This document shows positions 27,283-29,208 of a stretch of DNA of 34,256 nt, piece by piece. Below the pieces are notes generated by a model. The model did not search any database and was not told where the DNA came from. It saw only the letters and a list, made by a program, of their open reading frames with translations. The translations under genes were made by a program, and so were the position numbers. This DNA comes from a virus. The stretch's first letter is position 1, and every line of letters starts with the position of its first letter. The stretch is from positions 1 through 34,256 of the IMG/VR virus record IMGVR_UViG_3300037502_000480. One strand, written 5' to 3'.

Positions 27283-27516
27283 ATGCAAAAACAAACAAAA
27301 ATCTACTGCGGTAGCGGTAAGAAAAAATCAGACACTTGGCTTCAGATTACTATCAATCCCGAGAAGTTCAAAGATCATATCAAAGAATACAACGGAAATA
27401 AATTTGTAAAGCTGAACATCAATCTACTCAATGAGCCGGATAAGTTCGGTAAGGATGTCCAGGTATCGGTAGACACATTCGAGCCTAAGAAAGTCGAAAA
27501 CGATTTACCATTCTAA
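27283..27516 (+). CDS. Possible single-stranded DNA-binding protein with DLPF tail
   Basis: A 77-residue protein starting MQKQTKIYCGSGKKKSDTWL with a beta-rich body. It ends VENDLPF, which matches the acidic-Pro-Phe tip by which SSB proteins recruit replication and repair partners (DDDIPF in E. coli). It lies between the recombination genes and NinG, and its stop overlaps the NinG start by one base (TAATG). It is shorter than a usual OB-fold SSB. The SSB role is an inference from the tail and the context. Confidence 0.55.
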   Translation: MQKQTKIYCGSGKKKSDTWLQITINPEKFKDHIKEYNGNKFVKLNINLLNEPDKFGKDVQVSVDTFEPKKVENDLPF

Positions 27517-27875
27517 TGAGAAAGCTTACTCCACTTCCTAAGCTATTAGAGAAAACGCAGAAGGTCTTTAATGCTTTTATACGAGCAAGAGATAAAGAAT
27601 TAGGATGTATTTCTTGTGGAGCAGAAGTAGAACAGGCAGGACACTATCACTCTCAAGGGCACCACTCTGCTCTTCGTTATGATCCTATTAATACCAATGG
27701 ACAATGTCGCAGATGTAATATGTTCCTATCTGGAAATCTTATTAAATATCGGCAAGGTCTTGTAAGAAAATACGGAGAGCAGGTAGTACTTGACTTGGAA
27801 GAGAAAGCGAATACTAATAGACTAAAGAAGTGGAGTAGAGCAGAACTCGAAGAAATAATAACTAAATACAAATGA
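27516..27875 (+). CDS. ninG: NinG/Rap-like recombination nuclease
   Basis: A 119-residue protein. LGCISCGAEVEQAGHYHSQG with HHSALRYDPINTNGQCRRCN gives the CxxC...HYHSQGHH...CxxC zinc/HNH-type core of the lambda NinG family (Cys 31, 34, 64, 67). It is followed by FLSGNLIKYRQGLVRKYG. NinG (Rap) resolves branched DNA intermediates in phage recombination and works with annealing proteins such as the ERF protein here. It is shorter than lambda NinG at the N-terminus. The end overlaps the methyltransferase start (ATGA). Confidence 0.85.
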   Translation: MRKLTPLPKLLEKTQKVFNAFIRARDKELGCISCGAEVEQAGHYHSQGHHSALRYDPINTNGQCRRCNMFLSGNLIKYRQGLVRKYGEQVVLDLEEKANTNRLKKWSRAELEEIITKYK

Positions 27876-28831
27876 GACACGCATCACTCTTCTCAGGTAT
27901 AGGAGGCTTCGACCTGGCAGCCGATTGGATGGGATGGGAAAACGTTTTTCATTGTGATATAAATCCTTTCGGTAAAAAAGTACTTGAGTATTATTATCCA
28001 AATTCAATAAGCTATGGAGACATCACCAAAACAGACTTCACTATTCACAGAGGAGACATCGATGTACTCAGCGGTGGCTTCCCTTGTCAACCATACTCAC
28101 TTGCAGGAAAGCGAAAAGGGAAAGATGATGAGAGACATCTCTTCCCAGAAATGCTCCGAGCAATTAGAGAAATTTCACCCCGATGGATCATTGGCGAGAA
28201 CGTTTACGGACTTGTTAATTGGGATGGAGGATTGGTATTCCACGAGGTGCAGTCTGACTTGGAAGCTGAAGGGTACGAAGTTTTCCCGTATGTACTGCCA
28301 GCTTGTGCCATCAACGCACCGCACCGCAGAGACAGAGTCTTCTTTATTGCCTACTCCGACAACCCATCAACAGAATACTCAATTCAAGCAAGGAGGAACG
28401 TGCCTACAAGCAAAGATGATGCAAGGACTTCTACCTACTCCAACGACATTCGATGCAACGAACGCAACGGAGAATATGCAGAGCAGTCAGCTAACAGAAG
28501 GCTCGATGCACTCAATGACTTTAGTCAGGTGTCTGCACAGGAATCTTCTACCGACTCCGATGGCATCGGATTGCGGAGCGAAAGTCACAGGATTAGAAAG
28601 TCAAGATTCATTAGTAAAAATGACAAGACAAATTACTGGGAAACCTTCCCAACTGTCCCCCCAATTTGTGATGGAGATGATGGGCTTTCCGACAGATTGG
28701 ACTCTATTGCCTTTTCTAAATGGAGAAAGCAATCCATAATGGCAGGAGGAAACGCAGTAGTACCTCAATTAATTTATGTACTATTCAAAACTATTTCTAA
28801 ATTTGAAGAATTAAAAACTAAACAATGCTAA
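27872..28831 (+). CDS. dcm: C5-cytosine DNA methyltransferase
   Basis: A 319-residue enzyme with all key motifs: SLFSGIGGFDLA (motif I, SAM), GGFPCQPYS (68-76, catalytic Cys 72), GENVYG (motif VI), APHRRDRVFF (motif VIII, about 149-158) and GNAVVPQ (293-299, motif X). The variable recognition region (about 162-250) is Ser/Asp/Asn-rich, with TDSDGIGLRS before PTVPPICDGDDGLSDRLDSI. It would modify phage DNA against restriction. Residues about 48-289 share their DNA with an ORF in the +1 frame. It overlaps NinG by four bases and the DnaA-like gene by seven. Confidence 0.93.
   Translation: MRHASLFSGIGGFDLAADWMGWENVFHCDINPFGKKVLEYYYPNSISYGDITKTDFTIHRGDIDVLSGGFPCQPYSLAGKRKGKDDERHLFPEMLRAIREISPRWIIGENVYGLVNWDGGLVFHEVQSDLEAEGYEVFPYVLPACAINAPHRRDRVFFIAYSDNPSTEYSIQARRNVPTSKDDARTSTYSNDIRCNERNGEYAEQSANRRLDALNDFSQVSAQESSTDSDGIGLRSESHRIRKSRFISKNDKTNYWETFPTVPPICDGDDGLSDRLDSIAFSKWRKQSIMAGGNAVVPQLIYVLFKTISKFEELKTKQC
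28014..28739 (+). CDS. Overlapping +1-frame ORF inside the C5 methyltransferase gene
   Basis: The 241 codons lie entirely within the methyltransferase gene. The product opens METSPKQTSLFTEETSMYSA and contains WYSTRCSLTWKLKGTKFSRM, QLVPSTHRT and three LLPTP repeats (LLPTPTTHQ, LLPTPTTFD, LLPTPMASD). It ends QFVMEMMGFPTDWTLLPF. From memory, proteins with this opening, the LLPTP repeats and the MMGFPxxWTxLPF end recur in phages and prophages of Bacteroidales, next to or inside such methyltransferases. That, plus 241 stop-free codons with sensible composition, argues for real dual coding. An unexpressed shadow cannot be excluded. Confidence 0.65.
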   Translation: METSPKQTSLFTEETSMYSAVASLVNHTHLQESEKGKMMRDISSQKCSEQLEKFHPDGSLARTFTDLLIGMEDWYSTRCSLTWKLKGTKFSRMYCQLVPSTHRTAETESSLLPTPTTHQQNTQFKQGGTCLQAKMMQGLLPTPTTFDATNATENMQSSQLTEGSMHSMTLVRCLHRNLLPTPMASDCGAKVTGLESQDSLVKMTRQITGKPSQLSPQFVMEMMGFPTDWTLLPFLNGESNP

Positions 28832-29208
28832 CAACACACGACAAATTAGTACAGATAGCAGATAGATACTGCTCACTCTACGGAATCACTCGACAGGACT
28901 TATTCCGCACGAACAAAATCAAGAACGCAAAGAAACGTAAAGTATACAACGGAGTGAATATATCTACTCTACGTATGGCTCTCGGATATTACTTATCTAA
29001 TAACTTCCCTGCGACTCTTACCGAAATAGCTTTAGTAATTGGTTACAATGACCACTCTACAATAAGCTACAATAACCAACGCATCTACTTCTACATAAAG
29101 AATAATGATCCATTCTTTATGCAGCATTACAAAATTTTAGAAACAATAGGAGCAGAATATGAGCCAGTTAAATTCTACCGATTCCGCCAAAACTATATCT
29201 ATGCCTAA
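28825..29208 (+). CDS. DnaA domain-IV-like DNA-binding protein
   Basis: A 127-residue protein. The C-terminal two thirds (LRMALGYYLSNNFPATLTEI, then ALVIGYNDHSTISYNNQRI) match the helix-turn-helix of DnaA domain IV, where GYNDHSTI takes the place of the DnaA-box-binding DHTTV signature (76-79). There is no ATPase domain. Such mini-proteins may mark the phage origin or compete with host DnaA. It overlaps the methyltransferase end by seven bases and the next gene by 50 bases, in a replication block. Confidence 0.75.
   Translation: MLTTHDKLVQIADRYCSLYGITRQDLFRTNKIKNAKKRKVYNGVNISTLRMALGYYLSNNFPATLTEIALVIGYNDHSTISYNNQRIYFYIKNNDPFFMQHYKILETIGAEYEPVKFYRFRQNYIYA

Follow-up and report, generated by a model that had tools for sequence, protein, structure and literature searches.

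A viral cytosine methyltransferase gene with a conserved protein, probably a recognition subunit, nested in its +1 frame

Introduction

M.EcoHK31I (YGGCCR) and M.AquI (CYCGRG) are natural C5 cytosine methyltransferases made of two polypeptides (PMC3404938). In M.EcoHK31I, the large subunit holds motifs I–VIII and X, and the smaller polypeptide holds motif IX; in M.AquI, the beta subunit carries motifs IX and X, and the alpha subunit retains part of the variable region (PMC3404938). We analyzed a locus in a viral DNA of 34,256 nucleotides (IMG/VR record IMGVR_UViG_3300037502_000480, positions 1 to 34,256; hereafter the window), in which a C5 cytosine methyltransferase ORF, A, contains a second long ORF, B, entirely within its limits, on the same strand and in the +1 frame relative to A. 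The small subunit of M.EcoHK31I is likewise said to be nested in the gene of the large subunit, in a different frame.

The window shares with M.EcoHK31I the division of the motifs, with I–VIII and X on the large polypeptide and IX on the small one; the agreement is structural, and homology and the need for both polypeptides remain untested. The two differ in that the TRD of M.EcoHK31I is assigned to its large subunit, whereas the TRD-like LLPTP modules of the window lie in the nested frame, and in that M.EcoHK31I is one characterised enzyme while the family of the window spans many phyla. The layout of M.AquI, whose small subunit holds both motif IX and motif X, is not that of the window, because motif X lies in A; in addition, B is fully nested. 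We regard M.EcoHK31I, which the earlier note on this DNA did not mention, as the precedent for the locus and consider the breadth of the family, the encoding of a modular recognition region by the nested frame, and the evidence of selection to be new. No restriction enzyme gene that would identify EcoHK31I was found next to the enterobacterial plasmid and E. coli loci inspected, and a literature search returned no description of the family. To our knowledge, few pairs of same-strand genes in bacteria and phages overlap over hundreds of bases with selection acting on both products. Annotation software usually discards one of two overlapping frames.

Layout of the Nested Locus

All features described here are on the + strand. 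A spans positions 27872–28831 (319 aa) and B positions 28014–28739 (241 aa, with an ATG start), exactly as an earlier note on this DNA had placed them; we propose A as the catalytic subunit, holding motifs I–VIII and X, and B as the recognition subunit, holding TRD modules and motif IX. A matched Pfam PF00145 (DNA_methylase, 6.7e-47), PHROG 363, and NCBIfam dcm, and the C5 methyltransferase motifs that had been read in it are present, with I, IV (PCQ), VI (ENV), VIII, and X all in one ORF. It could be aligned to M.HhaI residues 13–174, and Foldseek placed its predicted structure on the M.HhaI large domain over about 163 columns with an rmsd of 1.6–2.1. According to this alignment and the AlphaFold model, residues 1–165 (27872–28366) form the large domain with motifs I–VIII (PCQ loop, ENV, APHRRDR), predicted with block pLDDT values mostly of 79–98. 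The helices of motif X (GGNAVVPQ) occupy residues 282–319 (28715–28828), an assignment based on the model (pLDDT about 72–98 by block and 85–98 from residue 291) and on the codon pattern. Residues 178–270 (28403–28681), where the B frame encodes LLPTP modules and motif IX, are judged from the model and from sequence identity to be a disordered linker: their pLDDT is about 38–63 by block, falling below 50 at residues 186–247, and almost no secondary structure is predicted. We did not find a TRD and motif IX in A's own polypeptide, which has no in-frame motif IX and is mostly disordered over residues 178–270.

The B start codon, an ATG at 28014–28016 supported by the retention of a +1 ATG in relatives, spans the codons of Tyr48 and Gly49 of A. 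The N-terminal half of B (residues 1–110; 28014–28343) is overprinted on motifs IV–VIII and contains the conserved Trp74 and Trp83 and an LTWK segment. Three LLPTP modules can be read in the sequence, at residues 111–115 (28344–28358), 139–143 (28428–28442), and 178–182 (28545–28559). T114-P115 in the first module is invariant among 14 diverse relatives, and T181-P182 in the third is nearly so. The earlier note had linked these repeats to repeats in the DNA, and the identical DNA repeats indeed read AYSDN, STYSND, and STDSDG in A. The end of B that resembles motif IX, LSPQFVMEMMGFPTDW (28653–28700), is assigned from an hhalign comparison and from invariant residues, M223 and P226 being invariant in relatives; the segment MMGFPTDWTLLPF is followed by LNGESNP. 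The "Trp-rich centre" ascribed to B proved an overstatement, since the protein has only three tryptophans (74, 83, and 229), albeit all nearly invariant in relatives. In the other 21 of the 22 window genes examined for this, nested frames on the same strand reached at most 102 codons, compared with the 241 of B.

Searches with B against Pfam, NCBIfam, and PDB sequences gave nothing useful. B matched PHROG 1008 ("DNA methyltransferase") at 7.2e-30, as did 127 of 128 B proteins overall; PHROG 1008 is the B family, and its label is misleading in that it describes the overlapping frame, B itself having no catalytic motifs. The AlphaFold model of B alone was poor (mean pLDDT 61.6), with a helix at residues 56–70 and a hairpin at 80–99 reaching roughly 70–87, and Foldseek returned no matches to this model. 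The hhalign comparison put the end of B on motif IX of canonical methyltransferases, e.g., MTPREWARLQGFPDKF, with a P value of 0.0035 and a probability of only 9%, the latter because the match is just 16 columns long.

The ORF immediately upstream (27516–27875) overlaps the start of A by four bases and contains Cys/His pairs that give it, we assume, a NinG-like look. The small ORF immediately downstream (28825–29208) ends in ALVIGYNDHSTISYNNQRI, which we take to resemble the DNA-binding C terminus of DnaA.

Relatives of the Two Frames

A tblastn search with B provided a sample of 83 phage records, and each of the 80 viral loci retrieved with B (80/80) overlapped an A relative in the same +1 relation. 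As this sample had been chosen for B, we drew a second one of 80 viral loci with A residues 1–51 only, nearly all of which lie outside the overlap. In 79 of these 80 loci, the +1 frame ran for 182 codons or more without a stop. The +2 frame was mostly filled with stops. The sole exception was locus L102, where a frameshift carries A into the B frame. The earlier note had pointed to relatives opening with METSxKQTSLFTE in Bacteroidales phages; such relatives exist, but the family is not confined to phages of that order. It had also named homologous loci with an intact methyltransferase and a stop-riddled +1 frame as grounds for refutation, and this description fits only canonical methyltransferases, most of which visibly retain a motif IX in their own frame. 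In Paenibacillus larvae phages (Tadhana_54 and Tadhana_55), both frames have been annotated, each as a DNA-cytosine methyltransferase. The pair resembles the window in that both frames are called, but it is an annotation only and leaves the nested frame without an assigned role.

Two loci, L102 and L396, show a frame change that joins the N terminus of the methyltransferase to a B-type frame, and in L396 motif X then lies in the other frame. We consider these to be recent shifts, pseudogenes, or assembly errors.

The recognition region was also found in other arrangements. In Mycobacterium phage WillSterrel, gp71 reads in one frame through motifs I–VIII, then LLPTP modules and LNPAFPEWMMGWPTGWV, and then motif X. 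Its residues 192–354, between motifs VIII and X, matched B profile positions 153–257 with an E value of 4e-20, while control sequences (shuffles and canonical methyltransferases) scored at most about 7 bits against this profile. The enzyme thus shares with the window the LLPTP–motif IX segment between VIII and X and differs in being a single polypeptide from a single frame. In other actinophages the LLPTP–motif IX segment sits in a neighboring gene of its own. A split form of this kind is seen in Kampy gp78/gp77 and Vash gp32/gp33, where alpha holds motifs I–VIII and beta, in the +1 frame and overlapping alpha only briefly, holds LPTP modules, motif IX, and motif X; similarly, at loci L332 and L401, A ends after motif VIII and B holds IX and X. 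These split loci have the layout of M.AquI alpha/beta. The occurrence of the LLPTP–motif IX segment either contiguously, as in gp71, or split, as in Kampy, Vash, L332, and L401, identifies it as a methyltransferase small domain, which in the window is nested.

Motif IX in Bacterial Genomes

Using the A profile alone, we collected 60 bacterial methyltransferases from two phyla and scored motif IX by pattern. Sixteen of the 60 had the motif in the +1 frame and none of these 16 also had it in frame; 36 had it in frame and none of these in +1; the remaining 8 had neither (Fisher 5e-9). The P value is approximate, as both patterns were refined after the first outputs had been read. In canonical C5 methyltransferases, the +1 frame was closed. 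We also scanned genome contigs with a 26-base DNA pattern for ends of the type L/F-x-M-G-(F/Y)-P-x-G-W-T, and in 71 of the 80 genome loci found by this motif-IX pattern the frame of the methyltransferase was -1 with respect to the motif. These 71 loci came from more than 10 phyla, including Bacillota, Cyanobacteriota, Pseudomonadota, Actinomycetota, Planctomycetota, Verrucomicrobiota, Spirochaetota, Chloroflexota, Bacteroidota, and Myxococcota, among others.

These distributions bear on the possibility that A is a complete methyltransferase with a poorly conserved recognition region of its own, and that B is a separate selected protein such as a regulator, an inhibitor, or an anti-restriction factor. 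A stays open up to and including motif X, its match to PHROG 363 covers its length, and its codons 261–280 are conserved in the A frame as well (0.61), which implies that this part is no free linker. We nevertheless find such an arrangement unlikely: A lacks an in-frame motif IX and has a disordered middle, WillSterrel gp71 carries the C-terminal half of B in frame as its small domain, and a motif IX in +1 goes together with the absence of one in frame. The earlier note had guessed at a partner, an inhibitor, or a specificity subunit. The last is the best supported of the three, because what A's frame lacks, TRD modules and a motif-IX-like end, is present in B and stands in frame in the contiguous actinophage enzymes.

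Selection on Both Frames

To evaluate the openness of the +1 frame, we shuffled synonymous codons within each A gene 300 times, keeping the A protein and its codon usage. None of the 300 permutations reached the natural open length in 66 of the 69 non-redundant relatives, which rules out a chance ORF. A +1 ATG was found at A codons 44–50 in 66 of 68 loci, against a permuted mean of 40.7 and a maximum of 51. In all blocks of the overlap, the pairwise identity of B was above that expected from the permutations, with ratios of about 1.25–2.8 compared with about 1.2 in A-only blocks; at A codons 121–140, B identity was 0.63 against an expected 0.32. Over codons 161–280, the identities of B and A by block were 0.15 and 0.13, 0.44 and 0.25, 0.28 and 0.18, 0.35 and 0.21, 0.22 and 0.21, and 0.74 and 0.61, respectively. 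Nowhere in the DNA-recognition region does B fall below A in conservation, and it is usually the better conserved of the two.

Divergence was also compared by codon position. In A-only stretches, position 3 was the most divergent, with ratios of position 1 to position 3 of 0.32 and 0.45, the latter in the motif X region. Within the overlap, the ratio rose to 1.18 for the TRD and to 1.79 for motif IX, meaning that position 1 of A, the wobble position of B, changes most and that the frame of B is the one followed. The B motif served to select 59 genome loci, where the ratios were 0.58 and 0.66 outside the overlap and 1.00 and 1.05 inside it. The selection statistics were not corrected for phylogeny, the A-only regions serving as an internal control. 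Together, the permutations and the codon-position divergence rule out a composition effect. The data support purifying selection on both the A and the B frame, as required of an overlapping gene pair, in the absence of expression data. The earlier note's claim that both frames are selected is thereby upheld on four counts: frame openness, start-codon retention, excess conservation in +1, and codon-position divergence.

The same data weigh on whether B is made as a separate protein. A ribosomal frameshift out of A downstream of motif VIII could produce the C-terminal half of B as part of a longer fusion, with B not separately initiated; the adjacent +1 alpha/beta genes with short overlaps in Kampy and Vash and the run of A into the B frame in L102 are compatible with it. 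The N-terminal half of B, upstream of such a shift, is nevertheless conserved in the B frame (0.63 vs. 0.32 expected) and the B ATG is retained, while motif X, being in A's frame, would require a second shift. Given the conserved N-terminal half and the frame of motif X, a shift from A to B is no adequate explanation, and we give it little credence. That B is untranslated, its open frame being a by-product of the amino-acid composition of A or of DNA-level repeats, is scarcely credible: long spurious frames are common in high-GC genomes and part of the similarity among B proteins stems from the conserved motifs of A, as the permutation expectation indicates, but permutations keeping the A protein and codon usage do not reproduce the pattern, substitutions follow the codon phase of B, and +1 is closed in canonical C5 methyltransferases.

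Proposed Two-Subunit Enzyme

We favor the reading, to which we assign a probability of roughly 0.8, that A and B together make up one C5 cytosine methyltransferase, both subunits being encoded in a single stretch of DNA and B joining in trans; the translation of B, its binding to A, and the need for both are inferred. A, in frame 0, would supply the catalytic large domain with motifs I–VIII, the disordered linker, and motif X. B would initiate at its own internal ATG (28014) in the +1 frame and supply the small DNA-recognition domain, with target-recognition modules of the LLPTP type and motif IX. The association of B with A in trans would then yield an active, sequence-specific enzyme. The N-terminal half of B perhaps docks on A, which is a guess.

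A broader proposal, on whose truth we are evenly divided, is that the locus represents a bacteria-wide class of C5 methyltransferases in which the whole DNA-recognition domain is encoded in the +1 frame of the catalytic subunit. In such a class, the recognition cassette would evolve and recombine almost only under the constraints of B, since the A frame translates it into a disordered linker; the N-terminal half of B would be a docking domain newly overprinted across the catalytic motifs; and frame shifts would have interconverted the contiguous, adjacent-split, and nested forms.

The nested arrangement recurs in phages and in bacteria of many phyla, and its second protein is often unannotated. 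If the two-subunit reading is true, many database entries for "DNA cytosine methyltransferase" each describe only half of an enzyme, the specificity being encoded in a frame that has not been called, and this affects motif prediction, cloning, and the interpretation of methylomes. With contiguous, split, and nested forms, the relatives offer a natural series for studying the origin of overlapping genes.

Related Arrangements

In E. coli prophages (L505–L507), the nested pair adjoins a replication endonuclease gene, and RefSeq annotates A only. In Gordonia phage Gudmit, the single gene for gp58 (L007:1287–2672) encodes LLPTP modules in two frames: the first to appear are in +1, and later ones are in the frame of the methyltransferase. 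Streptococcus phage MM1 1998 carries a nested pair annotated as "C5 methyltransferase alpha/beta" (L508:1201–2358 and 1352–1777), which we rejected as an instance of the arrangement, as its A has an in-frame motif IX. The +1 ORF of MM1 reads LSDILEEEVDERYFLS and resembles an in-frame segment of other C5 methyltransferases (in L458, IADIIEEQEVSVKYYLS), and this resemblance makes a second frame exchange in the TRD region possible.
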